From a virus, in the IMG/VR virus record IMGVR_UViG_3300033571_013806, positions 1 through 23,329 of that record: DNA of 23,329 nucleotides; one strand, 5' to 3'. Positions within the stretch are counted from its first letter, which is position 1. Every line of letters starts with the position of its first letter. Made by a program: the position numbers and the translations under genes. Below are positions 3,206 through 23,329 of the stretch, piece by piece. The notes beneath the pieces are model-generated. The model saw only the letters and a program-made list of their open reading frames with translations, had not been told where the DNA came from and searched no databases.

Positions 3206-3679
3206 ATGCAGGCACTTTGGAAACAGACCAAGGAAGTCACGTTGCGCAGCGGCCTCGTCGTCACCGTGCGCCACATCGGCACGCCTGACGACCCGTTCCT
3301 TTGGGAGACCATCTGGGCGGACTTCTCCACGGCGTACGAACGCGCGCGCGTTGTGGCGAGGAAGAAGTTGGCGGCGGACCACGGCAGCATTGGCGCAGCG
3401 CTTGAGGCGGAACGCGAGGCGCTGCGCGACGCGGGCGTTGACGCCGAGGTGGTGGAACGCTTCGACGTAAAGGCGCTGGTCCTCAAGCACGGCAGCGACC
3501 GTGCCGCGTACAGCAAGCTGGTCAAGGACTGCGTCGTTCACGGCGTAGACTACGACGGCAAGACGGGGCGCGAGGCGTACGACGCGCTGTTCCACGCGGG
3601 CGGGCCCGAGGCACTGAGCGAAGCGGCAAGCGCCGCGCGCGAGTTCAACCAGGTGGGTGCGCAGCTGGGGGAAGGCTAA
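3206..3679 (+). CDS. Tail assembly chaperone, short form (gpG-like)
   Basis: The ATG at 3206 gives 157 residues; the frame is open further upstream but inside the tail protein gene. The product is helical and charged, typical of gpG-like chaperones that coat the tape measure protein during tail assembly and are absent from the finished virion. It sits between the major tail protein and tape measure genes. Near its 3' end, five Gs at 3667-3671 followed by AA form a slip site; a -1 shift bypasses the TAA at 3677-3679 and makes a longer G-T form. The chaperone role is inferred from position plus the frameshift signal; the primary sequence is not itself diagnostic. Confidence 0.75.
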   Translation: MQALWKQTKEVTLRSGLVVTVRHIGTPDDPFLWETIWADFSTAYERARVVARKKLAADHGSIGAALEAEREALRDAGVDAEVVERFDVKALVLKHGSDRAAYSKLVKDCVVHGVDYDGKTGREAYDALFHAGGPEALSEAASAAREFNQVGAQLGEG

Positions 3680-3709
3680 GGGGCTGGCTCTACGCAACGA
3701 ACCGGCCCC
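3667..3709 (+). promoter_or_regulatory. Programmed -1 frameshift element (slip site, spacer and stem-loop)
   Basis: The heptamer GGGGGAA occupies 3667-3673; the zero-frame codons are GGG (3668-3670) and GAA (3671-3673). The P-site tRNA re-pairs perfectly one base back, and the A-site tRNA re-pairs on GGA with a G-U at the middle position. A six-base spacer (3674-3679) is followed by a stem of eight pairs (GGGGCTGG 3680-3687 with CCGGCCCC 3702-3709, one G-U) and a 14-base loop. The zero-frame stop lies in the spacer. All elements are seen directly; frameshifting is inferred. Confidence 0.75.
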
Positions 3710-4014
3710 GGTGTTCCGACTGCGAGCAGGCGCCCGCGCTCATGGAGAGGCTTGGCATGTGCGGCGACACCATCCCCGGCAACGATAGGTTGCCTGTGCT
3801 CGTCGGTGAGACGCTGGACCGCTGCCCAACGGCGGCGTTCCTCCAGCAGCCTGACGTGCGCATGCTCGCGGAGATGGTGCAGAGCCGCGACGGGCCGGGC
3901 ACGTTGGCCGGTGTGCCGCTTGCGCACCTGCCGCCCTACTACCGGCACGCAATGGCTGTGGCTGGCTCATGGCGTGAGGCGTGGACCTTGACCATTGCAA
4001 AGGACGGTGGCTGA
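3670..4014 (+). CDS. Tail assembly chaperone, -1 frameshift extension (gpT-like part)
   Basis: Frame 1 is open from the slip site (3667-3673) to TGA at 4012-4014. After slipping on GGG it would be read GGA AGG CTA AGG GGC TGG, adding 114 codons to the first 155 of the short form for a 269-residue G-T protein. The extension contains a CSDC pair soon after the junction, then a helical, Trp- and Tyr-containing C-terminal part. An internal ATG at 3742 has no convincing ribosome site, which favours frameshifting over independent initiation. In lambda-like tails the T part binds the major tail protein while the G part coats the tape measure protein. The stop overlaps the tape measure ATG by one base. 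Confidence 0.75.
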   Translation, partial: GRLRGWLYATNRPRCSDCEQAPALMERLGMCGDTIPGNDRLPVLVGETLDRCPTAAFLQQPDVRMLAEMVQSRDGPGTLAGVPLAHLPPYYRHAMAVAGSWREAWTLTIAKDGG

Positions 4015-5990
4015 TGGAAACGGACTATGTCTACCGGATGAGAGTTGAGGGCTCAGAGGAGGCAAGAGCCGCGTTTGAATCAGTCGCAAGTGCCGAAGAG
4101 AAGCGCAACAAGAACATGCAGCAGGTGTTGCCTGCCATCAAGGAGGTGGCACGCGACCTCGACAACCTGGGCCTGAACATCGGCAAGACGTTCACCATGG
4201 CCAGCGAAGGCGCGCTGTCCGTCGTGGCCGCGATTGGCAGCGGCGGCGTTGCTGGCGCCATCGGTCTTGCGACGCTCGCCGTTGGTGCGCTTGCGCAAGC
4301 GTGGGTCACGTACGGCAACGCGCACAAGCGCGCCGAGGAGGAAGCACAGGGGCGCCTTGACGCGTTCAAGACGTCGATGGAATCCGTCCGCGACATCATC
4401 AAGGAGATGCAAAAGCCGCTGACGTCCGAATCTCTGCTTGAAAAAGAAGCCGAGATCATGGAGCGGCGCATCGCGCAGGAACACTCAGGGTGGGACTTGA
4501 TCCTGATGCAGGACGAGTTGTTCCGTCTCAAGCGCGTGGCGGCATGGTCAGGCGGCGCATCCGACCTTTACGCCAAGGCAATCGAGGCGCAGGAGAAGAA
4601 GATCGCGGACTTCCGAGAGCACATCTACGACCAGAACCGCATCACGCTTGGCAAGATCCGAGACAAGCAAGAGGCCGAGGAACAGGCGGCCTTTGAGGCG
4701 CAGGCCAAGCGCGACGCCGAGGAGGCCAAGAAGCGCGCCGAGGAGCGCAAGCGCGCTGCAGAAAAGGCTGCCGAAGAAGACCGCAAGATGAACGGAATGT
4801 GGGGCGAGAACTATCTAAGCCTCTTCGCATCGCAGTCCAAGGCCACACAGGAATCGCTGGCCGATTTCTGGAAGCGCGTGCATGCCATCAACGACGCGGA
4901 GCGCCGCAAGGAACTTGCCGACGAGAAGCGCCGATGGGACGCGCTTGAGGAAGTGCGCATTGACGCGGTCAAGGCGGACATCGCCGCCGCTGAGAAGATG
5001 ACCAGCGACGTCGAAGCGGTGCGCAGCGAGGGCGCCATGCGTGAACAGCAGCGCGCCATGGACCGCGTCAACCTGAGCACCAGCGAACGTGAAGCCATCA
5101 TCCGCAACATGGCGGCCATCGAGCAGCAGCGCGAGCAGTTCGCTCTTGACCAGCAGATGCGCGCGCTTGACATGGTGGAGGTCACCACCGCGGCAGAGGA
5201 CATGATGGTGCAGGCGCAGCGGGTCACGCTGCGGCAGGTCTACGACGAGCGCCGCAAGATCCGCGAAGCCGACACCGAGCACCACATCCAGCAAATGAAC
5301 ATGCAGGCGCACGCCACCGACATGGCGACCGCGGCTAACTTCTTTTACGGCGAGGCGTCTATGTTGGTGGCGCCCATGGTCAGCGGGCTGTCATCGCAGG
5401 TGGCCAAGCTGGGCGAACTCAACCGGGAGAACGCGTGGCAGATCCGTGACTTTGCGGAAGACCTGCCCGCCATCATTGCCAAGGAGGCGCAAGCCTACGC
5501 GGCAGGCATCGCGGCGCAGGCCGTTGGCAAAGCGTCCATGTCGCTGCTTGACGCAGGCCGCGAGACCGCGTTGGGCGTGGGAATGATGTTCATCCCTGGT
5601 GGACAGGCCGCAGCGGCTGGCCACTTCAAGGCTGCGGCGCTGCACACGGGCATGGCGGCGGGCTATGCCGCGCTTGCGGGCGGCGCGGCTGGTGTGGCTG
5701 TCGGCATCGGGTCGGTGCGTGGCGAGGGCGGCATTGTTCCGCTCACGCGCGAAGAGCAGGAGCGTCAGGGGCGGGACCGCGAAGGAGGACGCGACCGCGG
5801 CGGTTCCACGCTCACGGGCCGCGGCAGCGACGGCGGCAGCATGTCCGGCGCGGAGCCGTTCGTGGTGAACATTGCATACCAAGCGGGAAGCATCGCGCCG
5901 TCCGACGAGCGCAGGGCCGCGCGCACCGTCGCCAATGGCGTGGCCCGCGCGCGCCGTAACGCATTCACCCGCCGCTCCATGGAGGGCTGA
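4014..5990 (+). CDS. Tape measure protein
   Basis: The chosen ATG at 4014 overlaps the previous stop (TGATG) and has the purine-rich AAGGACGGTGG upstream; it gives 658 residues. Visible parts are a helical N-terminus, a hydrophobic, Gly/Ala-rich segment (about 68-98), a long charged helical region with a strongly coiled-coil stretch of EAEEQ, KRAEERKRAAEK type (about 220-265), more helices rich in Gln, Met and Glu, a second Gly/Ala-rich hydrophobic segment (about 545-580) and a low-complexity Gly/Arg/Asp stretch. This is the architecture of tape measure proteins, which set tail length and leave the tube at injection. At about 1.5 Angstrom per helical residue, it predicts a tail near 100 nm, short for a siphovirus. 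Confidence 0.85.
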   Translation: METDYVYRMRVEGSEEARAAFESVASAEEKRNKNMQQVLPAIKEVARDLDNLGLNIGKTFTMASEGALSVVAAIGSGGVAGAIGLATLAVGALAQAWVTYGNAHKRAEEEAQGRLDAFKTSMESVRDIIKEMQKPLTSESLLEKEAEIMERRIAQEHSGWDLILMQDELFRLKRVAAWSGGASDLYAKAIEAQEKKIADFREHIYDQNRITLGKIRDKQEAEEQAAFEAQAKRDAEEAKKRAEERKRAAEKAAEEDRKMNGMWGENYLSLFASQSKATQESLADFWKRVHAINDAERRKELADEKRRWDALEEVRIDAVKADIAAAEKMTSDVEAVRSEGAMREQQRAMDRVNLSTSEREAIIRNMAAIEQQREQFALDQQMRALDMVEVTTAAEDMMVQAQRVTLRQVYDERRKIREADTEHHIQQMNMQAHATDMATAANFFYGEASMLVAPMVSGLSSQVAKLGELNRENAWQIRDFAEDLPAIIAKEAQAYAAGIAAQAVGKASMSLLDAGRETALGVGMMFIPGGQAAAAGHFKAAALHTGMAAGYAALAGGAAGVAVGIGSVRGEGGIVPLTREEQERQGRDREGGRDRGGSTLTGRGSDGGSMSGAEPFVVNIAYQAGSIAPSDERRAARTVANGVARARRNAFTRRSMEG

Positions 5991-11500: not shown

Positions 11501-11899
11501 ATGGCACTCGGACTTGCCACAGCATTGCGCACCACGCGCGCCACGGACATCGTCACCGCGATTGACGCGGGTGCAGGCCCCGGCCTGCTGCGTATCTACG
11601 ACGGCGTCCGCCCCGCAACGGGCGGCAGCGTCACGAACCTGCTCGCGGAACTGACCTTGTCTGACCCGTGCGGCACGGTGACCAACGGCGTGTTGACGTT
11701 CAGCGCCATCACGCAGGACGCAAGTGCCAACGCCACGGGCACTGCGACATGGTTCCGCATCGTCACCAGCGCCGCCGCGTTCGTGCTTGACGGCAGCGTG
11801 GGGACGTCCGGTACGGACCTCAACCTTACGACCACCAGCGTCACCACGGGGCAGCCCGTGCAGGTGACGTCGCTTGTCTTCACAGAGGGGAATGCCTGA
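11501..11899 (+). CDS. Conserved phage virion-type protein (tail appendage candidate)
   Basis: The start ATG at 11501 follows AAGGAGG at 11487-11493. The 132-residue product has an N-terminal helix (ATALRTTRATDIVTAIDAGA) followed by a small beta domain (LLRIYDGVRPATGG, LTFSAITQDASANATGTATW, FVLDGSVGTSGTDL) and ends VTSLVFTEGNA. I recognise this pattern from phage proteins of unknown function near tail or decoration genes; the name of a family cannot be given with certainty. Its stop overlaps the ATG of the next gene (TGATG at 11897), so the two are translationally coupled and probably made in related amounts. Confidence 0.5.
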   Translation: MALGLATALRTTRATDIVTAIDAGAGPGLLRIYDGVRPATGGSVTNLLAELTLSDPCGTVTNGVLTFSAITQDASANATGTATWFRIVTSAAAFVLDGSVGTSGTDLNLTTTSVTTGQPVQVTSLVFTEGNA

Positions 11900-12726: not shown

Positions 12727-13131
12727 ATGGCCGCGCGGGACTTCTCACGAGCAGGCATCGTTCCCGCGCGGCTTGCCCGTGGCGTGTCATTCTATGACGT
12801 CAACGACGCCGAGAAGGAGATTTGGTCCGCGTTCTTCTGGGGATCGCTGCCCGCCATCACCGGCACTGGCGCGTCCACGCTTGCGGACACCACGTCAGCA
12901 GGCAGTGGCACTCCCGTGGTCAACGGAACGGGCGCCACCACGCTGGACGCGGTGGCGTCAAGCGGTGCCGGGACGCCGGTCATCGTCGGCACTGGCGCCG
13001 TGACGCTTGACGCCTTGACAAGCGCGGGCAGCGGGAGCAGCGGGAATAGCGTGGCCGCGGGCGCATCACGGATCACGCAGTCACGCCGGGTGCGCGGTGC
13101 GCTTGGCAGGCCACAACACAGGGGGCGGTGA
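12727..13131 (+). CDS. Small repeat-containing virion-type protein
   Basis: The 134-residue product has a helix-rich N-terminus (residues about 1-40, including FYDVNDAEKEIWSAFFWG) and then three 21-residue tandem repeats (44-64, 65-85, 86-106) of the form xxGTGAxTLDAxxSxGxGTPV. The end (about 107-134) is basic, with SRRVRGALGRPQHRGR. Low-complexity GTGA-type repeats occur in virion proteins of many phages, often as linkers or surface elements; the role here is unknown. It starts six bases after the previous stop, with the repeats contributing to unequal-crossing potential. The basic end could contact nucleic acid or the wall polymer, which is speculation. Confidence 0.5.
   Translation: MAARDFSRAGIVPARLARGVSFYDVNDAEKEIWSAFFWGSLPAITGTGASTLADTTSAGSGTPVVNGTGATTLDAVASSGAGTPVIVGTGAVTLDALTSAGSGSSGNSVAAGASRITQSRRVRGALGRPQHRGR
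12856..13044 (+). repeat. Three 63-base in-frame tandem repeats
   Basis: Units at 12856-12918, 12919-12981 and 12982-13044 each encode 21 residues built on GTGAxTLDAxxSxGxG. Identity is clear in protein (GTGA, TL, S-G-G spacing) and partial in DNA, for example GGCACTGGCGC in units one and three. The last unit diverges at its end (GSGSSG). The repeats lie inside the gene at 12727-13131 and keep its frame. Confidence 0.8.
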
Positions 13132-18839: not shown

Positions 18840-19781
18840 ATGCGCCGCTTGCCATCCTTTTCCCAGTGGGACCGCGCCCTCGCGTGCCAGCCCAGCGAGA
18901 CGCTGCGCCACGTGCGCACGCCGTCGCCACACGCCAAGCGCGGATCCGCGCTTCACAAGTTCATGGAGATATACGTCAGCACCAACCGCGACCGGGAGGC
19001 CGCGCTTGCGGCCATCCACGAGGAGTTCCGCGCCGAGGCCGCACGCATTGACGTGGGCAACTTCGCGTTCCCCGCCGAGGTAGCCACGGAGGTAGCCGTT
19101 GGACTGGATCTGCTGCGGCAGGAGGCGCGGACGCTGGACGTCGCGTACCGCGCATACCCTGATCCCGCGTCCCCGTGGGAGACGCATGGAACGCTGGACC
19201 TGATCGGCAGGGACGGAGATCACGGGGACAAGGACGGCATGGTGGTCCTTGACTACAAGTTTGGCTTTGCCGAGACGGAGAGCACCGACGGGATGCAGCT
19301 TGCGCTGGGCGCCGCCAGCGCGCTGGCGCTGGAGCCATCAGCAGAGCGCGCATGGGTTGGCATCGTCCGTCTTGTGGACGGCGTCATGCTCAAGCCCTAC
19401 ATGAGGACCGAGCCGTACACGCGCGACAGCCTGCGACCCGTCATTGAGCGCGCGCTTACGTGGGCCGCCAAGTTCCGCGCGGGCGAACTGTCGCGCACCT
19501 ACGAGATGGGTGACCATTGCCGCTACTGCCCGGCCTTCCGCGTGTGCCCGGCGCAGGTGCACCTGCTGCGTGGCGGCTTTGCCGAGGACAACGACGCGAT
19601 CACGGATCTGCCAGCAGCATACGAGCGGGTCACGCGGCTGGACCGCGCGCTGCGGGTGGCCAAGGACCAGTTGAGGGAGCACGCGTTGCGCGAGCCCATC
19701 CCCATGGGTGATGGCCGCGTGTACGGGATGGTCAACGGACAGGTGCGGGCGCACCGCCCGCGGGAAGGTGGTGGCGAATGA
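18840..19781 (+). CDS. Cas4/RecB-like PD-(D/E)XK nuclease with iron-sulfur cysteines
   Basis: The ATG at 18840 follows AGGAGG at 18825-18830; 313 residues. Motifs in order: RGSALHKFME (His39, motif I), HGTLDLIG (Asp120), VVLDYKFG (Asp138, Lys140), and MQLALGA (Gln153), the active-site set of RecB-family nucleases. Cys16 near the N-terminus plus Cys227, Cys230 and Cys236 (HCRYCPAFRVCP) fit the four ligands of a [4Fe-4S] cluster as in Cas4 and AddB. It probably resects DNA ends, supplying single strands for the Sak4-like recombinase encoded divergently. No CRISPR array or Cas1 gene is near, so it is a stand-alone phage version. Substrate polarity is unknown. Confidence 0.8.
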   Translation: MRRLPSFSQWDRALACQPSETLRHVRTPSPHAKRGSALHKFMEIYVSTNRDREAALAAIHEEFRAEAARIDVGNFAFPAEVATEVAVGLDLLRQEARTLDVAYRAYPDPASPWETHGTLDLIGRDGDHGDKDGMVVLDYKFGFAETESTDGMQLALGAASALALEPSAERAWVGIVRLVDGVMLKPYMRTEPYTRDSLRPVIERALTWAAKFRAGELSRTYEMGDHCRYCPAFRVCPAQVHLLRGGFAEDNDAITDLPAAYERVTRLDRALRVAKDQLREHALREPIPMGDGRVYGMVNGQVRAHRPREGGGE

Positions 19782-20549: not shown

Positions 20550-20740
20550 CGGAAGAAGAAGCGCGGGCCATCGTGGCACGCGGTGACACGGAGGAGATCG
20601 TGGGCTGGCTGCGGCGCGTGTGCGTCCGCGCCGACGAGTGCCCGCGGTGCAACAGCGTGGTGCGTGACCTGTACCTGGTCGGCGCGCCGGGGCTCAACAG
20701 GTGGATGTGCGCGGCGTGCCGCGCGGAGGTGACGGGATGA
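20546..20740 (+). CDS. Small CxxC protein, unknown
   Basis: The ATG at 20546 overlaps the preceding stop by four bases with AGGTGA as ribosome site; 64 residues. An acidic N-terminal helix (TEEEARAIVARGDTEEIVGW) is followed by CPRC (32, 35) and CAAC (55, 58) about 20 residues apart, which suits a zinc ribbon with a helical cap. The stop overlaps the methyltransferase ATG (ATGA). The gene could encode a partner or regulator of the methyltransferase, but no evidence beyond coupling exists. Confidence 0.6.
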   Translation: MTEEEARAIVARGDTEEIVGWLRRVCVRADECPRCNSVVRDLYLVGAPGLNRWMCAACRAEVTG

Positions 20741-21972
20741 CACAGGGACTGCTGTTTGACGACGTGCCGCAGGAGGCTCCGCCGCCGTCGGTGGATGACG
20801 TGCTGGCCAAGGCGCGCGCGGGCGATCACACGTTCACGCTGACCGTGGGCAACTCGCTGGAGGTGCTGCCCACCTTGGCAGCCAACAGCGTGGACGCGGT
20901 GGTGTGCGATCCTCCGTATGAGCTCGGGTTCATGGGCAAGAAGTGGGACGCGTCGGGGATCGCGTTCTCCGTGCACCTGTGGCACGAGGTGCTGCGCGTG
21001 CTCAAGCCGGGCGGCATGCTGCTCGCGTTCAGCGGCACGCGGACGCAACACCGCATGGTGTGCGCCATCGAGGACGCGGGATTTGAGGTGCGGGACCAGA
21101 TGGCGTGGACATATGGTTCGGGATTCCCAAAGTCGCTGGACGTCAGCAAAGCGATTGACAAAGACGCGGGCGTGTGGCGCGCCTGCACGGCCGCGCCACA
21201 CGCCGATGACGAACAGCGGTCATTCGGCCAGCACTACGAGAGCACCGACAAGGGAGAGCCCGCCACCGACGCCGCCCGTGAGTGGGCCGGATGGGGCACG
21301 GCGTTGAAGCCCGCGTGGGAATCCATCTGCGTGGCGCGCAAGCCGCTGGACGGCACCGTGGCGGACAACGTGCAGAAGTGGGGTACGGGCGGGATCAACG
21401 TGGACGCGGGGCGCGTTGGTACGGATGAGCCTCGGCCAGCGCTGGAGCACACTGGCCGCACCGGCAATGTCTTTGGTGCCGGGCTTGAAGGTTCGCGCTC
21501 CATCGGTGACACGATGCTTGGCCGTTGGCCCGCCAACATCATCCACGACGGCAGCGCCGAGGTGGCGGGCCTGCTCGGTTCCGCCGCCCGCTTCTTCTAC
21601 TGCGCCAAAGCAAGCCGCGGAGAGCGCGAGGCAGGATGCGAGGCGCTGCCCGCCATGGCCGGGCATGAAGCGGTGGGGCGCGAGGAAGGCAGCGCGGGTG
21701 CGGCTAACCCGCGTGCTGGTGCCTCCCGCACCAGCACGTTCGTCCGCAACTTCCATCCGACGGTGAAGCCGGTGGACCTGATGCGCTACATGGTTTCACT
21801 TGTAGCCAAGCCCGGTGCGCTGGTGCTGGACCCGTTCGCGGGCAGCGGCACCACGGGGATCGGCTGCGTGCTTGCGGGCGTTCGCTTTCACGGCATCGAG
21901 ATGGACACCGCGCACGCATGCATCGCGTGGCACCGGCTCACATGGTGGGCCGCCAACCGGAGGAAGTCATGA
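20737..21972 (+). CDS. DNA methyltransferase, beta class, DPPY type
   Basis: The ATG at 20737 overlaps the previous stop; 411 residues. VVCDPPYELG (DPPY at 58-61) is the catalytic motif IV of amino-methyltransferases and DPFAGSGTT (365-373) is the SAM-binding motif I. Motif IV before motif I is the beta-class order, with the target recognition region in between (about 170-330, including GGINVDAGR, WPANIIHDG and FFYCAKASRGERE). NFHPTVKPVDLMRYM (about 340) is a typical motif leading to motif I. DPPY favours N6-adenine over N4-cytosine as product. No partner restriction gene is next to it, so it is an orphan that may shield phage DNA or mark it. Specificity cannot be read from sequence. Confidence 0.9.
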   Translation: MTQGLLFDDVPQEAPPPSVDDVLAKARAGDHTFTLTVGNSLEVLPTLAANSVDAVVCDPPYELGFMGKKWDASGIAFSVHLWHEVLRVLKPGGMLLAFSGTRTQHRMVCAIEDAGFEVRDQMAWTYGSGFPKSLDVSKAIDKDAGVWRACTAAPHADDEQRSFGQHYESTDKGEPATDAAREWAGWGTALKPAWESICVARKPLDGTVADNVQKWGTGGINVDAGRVGTDEPRPALEHTGRTGNVFGAGLEGSRSIGDTMLGRWPANIIHDGSAEVAGLLGSAARFFYCAKASRGEREAGCEALPAMAGHEAVGREEGSAGAANPRAGASRTSTFVRNFHPTVKPVDLMRYMVSLVAKPGALVLDPFAGSGTTGIGCVLAGVRFHGIEMDTAHACIAWHRLTWWAANRRKS

Positions 21973-22409
21973 TCACATTTGTTACTGCACCCGTCACGCT
22001 GTACCCGTCCGCTGACAGCCTGTTCCCGCAGTCCGCTCCCACGCTCGGCTACGTCTATGGCCCGACGCTGGCGCCGCGCGAGAAGCGTCCCGCCAAGCCG
22101 AAACCGAAGCCGTTTGACGTGGAACACGTGCGCGGTGGCAGCGAGAAGCGCAAGCAGCGCGAGCGCAAGGCAGCGCGTGCCACGCTCCGCGACGCATTGG
22201 CCGCGGCTGCAATGCGCGTGCTGCGCCGGGACAAGTCGGCCACGGTTGGGCGGCTCGCGTCGGAACTGGGCACAACGCGCAAAATGGCGGGGCGCGCGGC
22301 GATGCGGCTGGTGTCCTCGGGTGCCGCGGTCAAGATGCGGTTGGACAACTTCCGCAGGGACCACACCACCCATGTGATCTATGCGCTGGCCGACAAGGTG
22401 TGGCCATGA
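21969..22409 (+). CDS. Winged-helix-like DNA-binding protein, unknown
   Basis: The ATG at 21969 overlaps the methyltransferase stop by four bases, with AGGAAG just upstream; 146 residues. The N-terminal 45 residues are proline- and serine-rich; then comes a basic linker (REKRPAKPKPKPF) and a helical domain with RRDKSATVGRLASELGTTRK (about 92-112), GRAAMRLVSSGAAVKMRLDN (about 114-134) and HVIYALADKVWP. The second part reads like a winged helix-turn-helix with a two-strand wing. The disordered basic N-terminus suits DNA binding. The gene could be a regulator or replication-associated protein; no specific family is claimed. Its stop overlaps the helicase ATG by four bases. Confidence 0.55.
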   Translation: MITFVTAPVTLYPSADSLFPQSAPTLGYVYGPTLAPREKRPAKPKPKPFDVEHVRGGSEKRKQRERKAARATLRDALAAAAMRVLRRDKSATVGRLASELGTTRKMAGRAAMRLVSSGAAVKMRLDNFRRDHTTHVIYALADKVWP

Positions 22410-23329
22410 GGCTGCGAGACTACCAGGCCCGCGCGGTGGACGCGGCGTTCTCGTACTGGTCCAACGGCGGCAGCGGCTCGCCGCTGGTGGTGCTTCCCAC
22501 AGGCAGTGGCAAGAGCGCCGTCCTTGCGGCTGCATCCGCGCGGCTCGTCGGTGACTTCGGCGCGCGGGTCATCGTAGCCACGCACCGCAAGGAACTCATC
22601 GCGCAGGACGCTGCCGCGATCCGCCGCTTTGATCCCGCGCTCAACGTGGGCATGTGGAGTGCCGGCGTTGGCGAGAAGCGCGTGGGCGACGTGACGGTGG
22701 CGGGCGTCCAGTCCGCGTGGCGGCAGACCGCGGCATTCGGGCACGTGGATGTGCTGGTGGTGGACGAGGCGCACCTTGTCAGCACCGATGACGCGTCCAT
22801 GTACGGCAAGCTCATCGCCGGGCTGCGCCGCGTGAACCCGGACATGCGGCTCCTCGGCCTCACCGCCACGCACTACCGCATGGGGCAGGGCTACCTGACG
22901 CAGGGAGAGGGCGCCTTGTTCTCCTCGGTGGTGTGCCGCATCGGGGAGCGCGAACTGGTGGACGCCGCGTGGCTCGCGCCGCTCACCGCGGGCAAGGCAT
23001 CCGCGCAGGTGGACACGTCCGACGTGGCCACGTCCGGCGGAGACTTCGTCGCGCGCGATTTGGAACTGGCTGCGGACCTCGACGAGGTCAACGGCGCGGT
23101 CGCGCGTGACGTCGCAGATGCTCTGGCCAGCGGCAGGCACATGGCCATGGTCTTCTGCGTCGGCGTTGACCACGCGGGCCACATGCGGGCCGCGCTCCAG
23201 ATGGCGGGCGTGCGGGCCGAGGTGGTCACTGGCGAGACGGCAGGACGTGATCGGGTGATCGAGGACTTCAAGCGCGGCGCGTTCCCGTGCCTTGTCTCCT
23301 GCGACGTGCTGACAACGGGCTTTGACGCG
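22406..23329 (+). CDS. SF2 DEAH-box helicase (partial, cut by window end)
   Basis: The ATG at 22406 overlaps the preceding stop by four bases and the frame is open to the end, 308 codons. Motifs in order: LRDYQ (Q-like motif, 3-7), PTGSGKS (Walker A, 31-37), ATHRKEL (Ia, 58-64), VVDEAH (Walker B, 118-123), LTATHYR (III, 152-158), MVFCVGVDHA (IV-like, 248-257) and LTTGFDA (V, 302-308). Motif VI lies beyond the window. This is the order of SF2 helicases of the RadD/UvsW-like group, which remodel forks or recombination intermediates. It fits the recombination/replication module with the Sak4-like and Cas4-like genes. Family within SF2 is inferred. Confidence 0.85.
   Translation, partial: MRLRDYQARAVDAAFSYWSNGGSGSPLVVLPTGSGKSAVLAAASARLVGDFGARVIVATHRKELIAQDAAAIRRFDPALNVGMWSAGVGEKRVGDVTVAGVQSAWRQTAAFGHVDVLVVDEAHLVSTDDASMYGKLIAGLRRVNPDMRLLGLTATHYRMGQGYLTQGEGALFSSVVCRIGERELVDAAWLAPLTAGKASAQVDTSDVATSGGDFVARDLELAADLDEVNGAVARDVADALASGRHMAMVFCVGVDHAGHMRAALQMAGVRAEVVTGETAGRDRVIEDFKRGAFPCLVSCDVLTTGFDA

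Follow-up and report, generated by a model that had tools for sequence, protein, structure and literature searches.

The tail chaperone proteins of phage lambda, G and GT, occur in a fixed ratio; they hold on to the tape measure protein and bring in the major tail protein. The pair arises through a frameshift on the heptamer G GGA AAG. The G/GT tail chaperone frameshift was reportedly described by Xu, Hendrix and Duda in 2004. Tail chaperone proteins diverge widely in sequence, and homology is a supporting rather than a strictly defining feature in their identification.

Another heptamer, GGGGGAA, has also been associated with these genes. In the PRFect study, every one of the roughly one thousand SEA-PHAGES sites assigned to the motif named "fivetwo" read GGGGGAA; by the paper's own statement, these sites are annotated and not experimentally tested (PMC10885494). 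The same study already provides an explanation for this site, as the Glu tRNA is able to re-pair on GGA if a G:U pair is allowed (PMC10885494). A slip on GGGGGAA, accompanied by an internal Shine-Dalgarno (SD) sequence and a downstream structure, has been proposed for gp14A of corynephage phi16 (PMC5506516).

As a yardstick for the locus described here, we took twelve tail chaperone genes that are annotated in Mycobacterium and Gordonia phages with a joined product; the G proteins of these phages share about 30-80% identity with D29 gp24. All twelve carry G GGG GAA in the identical phase, with the stop 3-21 nt later, and nine of them present a stem of at least 8 bp beginning 7 nt downstream (loop of 8-16 nt, mostly 16); since these genes were picked as relatives of D29, they represent one lineage and not twelve independent cases. 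Outside this group, Che8, which belongs to a different cluster, has a G gene without G5AA, and the chaperone of Send513 has been annotated with a -2 shift.

Reading frames, proposed slip site and coding signal

The window, i.e., the whole stretch of DNA that was analysed, is the entire virus record IMGVR_UViG_3300033571_013806 (23,329 bases, 67% GC), which was derived from a metagenome. The features of the chaperone locus are located on the + strand. A zero-frame ORF of 157 aa (3206-3679), preceded by the SD-like stretch AAGGGGA and scoring +76.9 bits for coding in frame, would represent the short (G-like) form of a tail assembly chaperone, as suggested by its place in the gene order and by this score. 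Read from its ATG at 3206, the ORF ends in CTG GGG GAA GGC TAA (G3668GG-G3671AA-GGC-TAA(3677)), which puts the heptamer G GGG GAA (3667-3673) in zero-frame phase, as in the twelve actinophage genes. The heptamer is followed by the spacer GGCTAA (3674-3679), which separates it from a downstream stem and contains the zero-frame stop TAA (3677-3679), 3 nt past the heptamer.

The open stretch of frame -1 extends from 3442 to a TGA at 4012-4014, and this TGA overlaps the ATG at 4014 of the next long ORF. No ATG, GTG or TTG is present in frame -1 within 3442-3741, so that the locus comprises two overlapping ORFs, the second of which lies in frame -1 and has no start of its own before 3742. The extension (T; 3673-4014) counts 113 sense codons plus TGA, and the predicted products are 157 aa for the zero frame and 269 aa (156 + 113) for the shifted one. 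The ORF that follows (4014-5990, 658 aa) is a probable tape measure protein according to its position, its length and its alanine- and charge-rich composition. With sizes of 403 aa, 157/269 aa and 658 aa, the three consecutive ORFs fit the usual major tail protein - chaperone - tape measure layout; the neighbours gave no family or tblastn match, and their assignment as major tail and tape measure proteins is probable from order and size rather than from a family match.

Programmed -1 frameshifting in a tail assembly chaperone gene of the G/GT type is the best reading of this locus and very probably the correct one, given the position, the phase, the coding signal and the match to annotated sites. 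It had been put forward in a sequence-only reading of the window, whose coordinates for the slip element were all correct, to the base. That reading had described GGGGGAA at 3667-3673 followed by a six-base spacer holding the zero-frame TAA, a frame -1 open for 114 codons (113 sense codons plus the TGA) up to the tape measure start, and two forms of 157 (G) and 269 (G-T) residues, all of which agree with the sequence and its frames.

A single copy of GGGGGAA occurs in the window when both strands are considered, compared to 1.86 expected in shuffled sequences, and its mere presence is therefore unsurprising. It is the location of the heptamer that exceeds chance: across 14 ORFs with 4,737 in-phase positions there are only four in-phase slip candidates (one G5AA and three XXXYYYZ), and the sole five-two site among them belongs to the ORF that occupies the chaperone slot, 3 nt ahead of its stop. 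With the phase G GGG GAA confirmed, re-pairing in the P site would be perfect, as had been anticipated from the letters, and the Glu tRNA in the A site would re-pair on GGA. The sequence-only reading had also remarked that GGGGGAA departs from a strict X XXY YYZ site through a middle G-U pair; this G-U re-pairing corresponds to the published account (PMC10885494), while the implied oddity did not hold, the heptamer being a common slip site of tail chaperone genes.

The extension scores +10.7 bits for coding in frame -1, compared to -70.6 and -87.3 bits in the other forward frames; its GC pattern by codon position equals that of the other genes, and a sliding profile switches frame clearly. This signal comes from the codons past 3742 (+22.1 bits), and the 23 codons that open the extension (3673-3741) score -11.4 bits and fall in the lowest 3.4% in synonymous usage. 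Three of their rare codons (AGG, CTA and AGG) are dictated by the slip site and by the stop of the zero frame; codons 3673-3741 give no independent proof of translation. Four Cys residues are encoded in the extension (3.5%, compared to 0-2.2% in the other structural ORFs), two of which (CSDC, codons 14-17) are located upstream of any start codon.

The non-coding score of the codons before 3742 would also fit a separate small gene for T only, starting at ATG 3757 or 3742 and translated by coupling after the upstream stop, with G5AA present by chance. The PRFect study mentions phages in which two chaperone genes are present and their join is not annotated (PMC10885494), and ATG 3757, a possible internal start (3757-4014) for a rival or an additional product, is preceded at 6 nt by GGAGAGG (window 3744-3759). 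Its anti-SD energy of -6.4 kcal/mol is among the best 10% of random positions and weaker than that of most of the 14 other ORF starts, which lie mostly between -6.8 and -13.6 kcal/mol, with one at -5.0; the SD at 3742 is weak (-4.9 kcal/mol), being equalled by a third of random positions. A T-only gene would, however, leave an untranslated gap of 62-77 nt (for a start at 3742 or 3757, respectively) in an otherwise packed operon, would lose the CSDC pair of the Cys-rich extension, and would leave to chance the in-phase occurrence of a known slip heptamer only 3 nt away from the stop. We consider this explanation unlikely; an internal start at ATG 3757 could coexist with the frameshift.

Less probable still is the loss of one base from a longer G run, either as an assembly or sequencing error or as a real deletion. 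Six Gs would indeed fuse G and T without interruption and the record is metagenome-derived, but an annotated shift site in a phage whose chaperone sequence is unrelated has the identical heptamer in the identical phase and agrees at 11 of the 13 flanking bases; an error would have had to hit precisely this position and, in addition, leave a stop 3 nt further on.

Downstream hairpin and proposed mechanism

The hairpin downstream of the spacer (3680-3709) is formed by an 8-bp stem, in which GGGGCTGG (3680-3687) pairs with CCGGCCCC (3702-3709) through seven Watson-Crick pairs and one U-G, and by a 14-nt loop, within which RNAfold adds 2 bp. For a GGGGGAA slip site, a stimulatory structure would be expected 5-9 nt downstream, a range that includes the 6-nt distance of this stem. 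The 35-nt hairpin reaches -18.6 kcal/mol, with a z of -2.95 versus its own shuffles (RNAfold), and an equal stability is attained by only 1.2% of the 35-nt windows of the record. The significance is moderate only: for a wider stretch of 62 nt around the hairpin z is -0.18, 7% of synonymous recodings fold as well, and a stem of at least 8 bp at a like distance is found at 9% of the in-frame positions in the ORFs of the window. Because of this chance level of 7-9%, the stem, which had been described from the letters with an exact layout (8 bp, 14-base loop, six bases after the heptamer), is by itself unremarkable; it is within chance for a genome of 67% GC and represents modest evidence. By eye, the loop bases CGCA may pair with TGCG (3721-3724) through four pairs, as a candidate pseudoknot.

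Upstream of the heptamer, CAGGTGGGT (3650-3658) is a possible internal SD-like stretch, with a weak predicted anti-SD pairing of -7.8 kcal/mol that is matched by 5% of the positions in the ORFs of the window.

In the proposed frameshift, most ribosomes would read the ORF 3206-3679 to the TAA at 3677, leading to the short chaperone (G) of 157 residues, and a minority would slip one base back on G GGG GAA, possibly stalled by the hairpin six bases downstream and perhaps also by the SD-like stretch upstream. In a tandem slip, the P-site tRNA-Gly would re-pair fully on GGG and the A-site tRNA-Glu on GGA via the middle G-U pair; alternatively, the P-site tRNA may slip while the A site is empty, which would place Gly instead of Glu at residue 156. 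The slipped ribosome would then read 113 further codons to the TGA at 4012, producing the G-T form of 269 residues. By analogy with lambda G/GT, both forms, at a fixed ratio, might hold the tape measure protein and recruit the major tail protein during tail assembly. The sequence, the frames, the coding signal, the gene order and the match to known sites were observed; that slippage takes place, at what rate, and the chaperone function are inferred. Transcriptional slippage on the G run is extremely improbable as a substitute for ribosomal slippage: a homopolymer run is present, but five Gs are a short run for polymerase slippage, and the hairpin and the phase suit the ribosome.

Searches for relatives and other genes of the record

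G, T, the major tail and tape measure proteins and two tail-tip candidates gave no tblastn match in 50,697 phages; one match of T at E=10 was disregarded. Pattern scans of viral contigs with G, T, the major tail protein, two tail-tip proteins, the exonuclease and the helicase retrieved no relative of the tail genes and a single helicase at 31%, and scans of bacterial genome contigs with G and the major tail protein found no relative. G and T had no match in Pfam or PHROG, and no profile match to the 12 actinophage G or T proteins. Given that no homology to known chaperones was detected, the assignment rests on features of how the locus would work and not on descent. Structures modelled from the single sequences, with pLDDT values of 53 for G and 39 for T, were too poor to support a chaperone fold, and a Foldseek search with this low-quality G model returned nothing below E 0.001.

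Elsewhere in the window, a protein of 132 aa (11501-11899) matches phrog_3758 (virion structural protein, E 3.5e-29). Its relatives occur in Vibrio phages that carry a tail sheath gene, in Agrobacterium phage Milano, in Mycobacterium phage Send513 and on the 80 viral contigs, up to 71-73% identical, that were reached with an alignment of the spike-like protein (A2). The protein apparently moves as a module among tail types that are not related to each other. The other tail genes of these 80 loci showed no match to those of the window, except for an ORF of 134 aa (12727-13131) that has no family match: in 15 of the 80 loci, relatives of its residues about 39-123 lie ~1.1-4.3 kb downstream from the spike-like gene, so that its product may be a conserved partner. 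In-phase G5AA sites in the 80 loci were also considered and look like ribosome sites or chance.

The record further contains a PD-(D/E)XK exonuclease (DUF2800-like; 18840-19781), an N6/N4 DNA methyltransferase (20701-21972) and a helicase (22400-23329) that is cut off by the end of the record. The 221-position profile of the methyltransferase is spread over residues 64-405, indicating about 120 extra residues inside the domain. With the exonuclease and the helicase, the replication module is recognisable, although the tail module is not.

Comparison with known chaperone frameshifts

Since accounts are available from PRFect (PMC10885494) and from phi16 (PMC5506516), both the mechanism and the GGGGGAA heptamer are already known, and the present case is an ordinary signal, of a type reported from many actinobacterial phages, unusual only for sitting in a virus without close known relatives. 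The understanding of the chaperone frameshift system is unchanged by it. What it adds is a GGGGGAA chaperone slip site in a tail module lacking recognisable relatives, which makes it easier to locate the tail genes in a virus that is otherwise unannotated. It also provides a further case for probing how slippage is tolerated when the A site has a middle G-U pair.

The locus resembles lambda G/GT in having two predicted products from one start, with a proposed -1 shift close to where the first ORF ends, between the probable major tail and tape measure genes, and differs from it in the heptamer, which in lambda is G GGA AAG and here is G GGG GAA with a hairpin. The GGGGGAA heptamer is shared with phi16 gp14A, for which the frameshift is likewise a proposal; a pseudoknot has been proposed there (PMC5506516), whereas a plain hairpin suffices in the window.

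Cluster A-type actinophages (D29 gp24/25, Groundhog gp19/20 and Gordonia phage Rosalind gp26/27) have in common with the window the heptamer, its phase and, as far as the neighbours are what their order and size suggest, the order major tail protein - G/GT - tape measure. They differ in the spacer (7 nt, compared to 6 nt in the window) and in the loop (usually 16, compared to 14), and no homology was detectable between their proteins and the G and T of the window. The likeness is most evident in Mycobacterium phage Groundhog, where 18 of the 20 nt around the site are identical to the window and the stop (GCC TAG) is likewise 3 nt on. Tentatively, the same layout (CTG GGG GAA GSC TAR, an 8-bp stem, a spacer of 6-7 nt and a loop of 14-16 nt) might have arisen independently in chaperones without detectable common sequence, which would point to a preferred design for the non-standard heptamer across hosts, with ATG 3757 perhaps yielding a third product, the T domain in free form.
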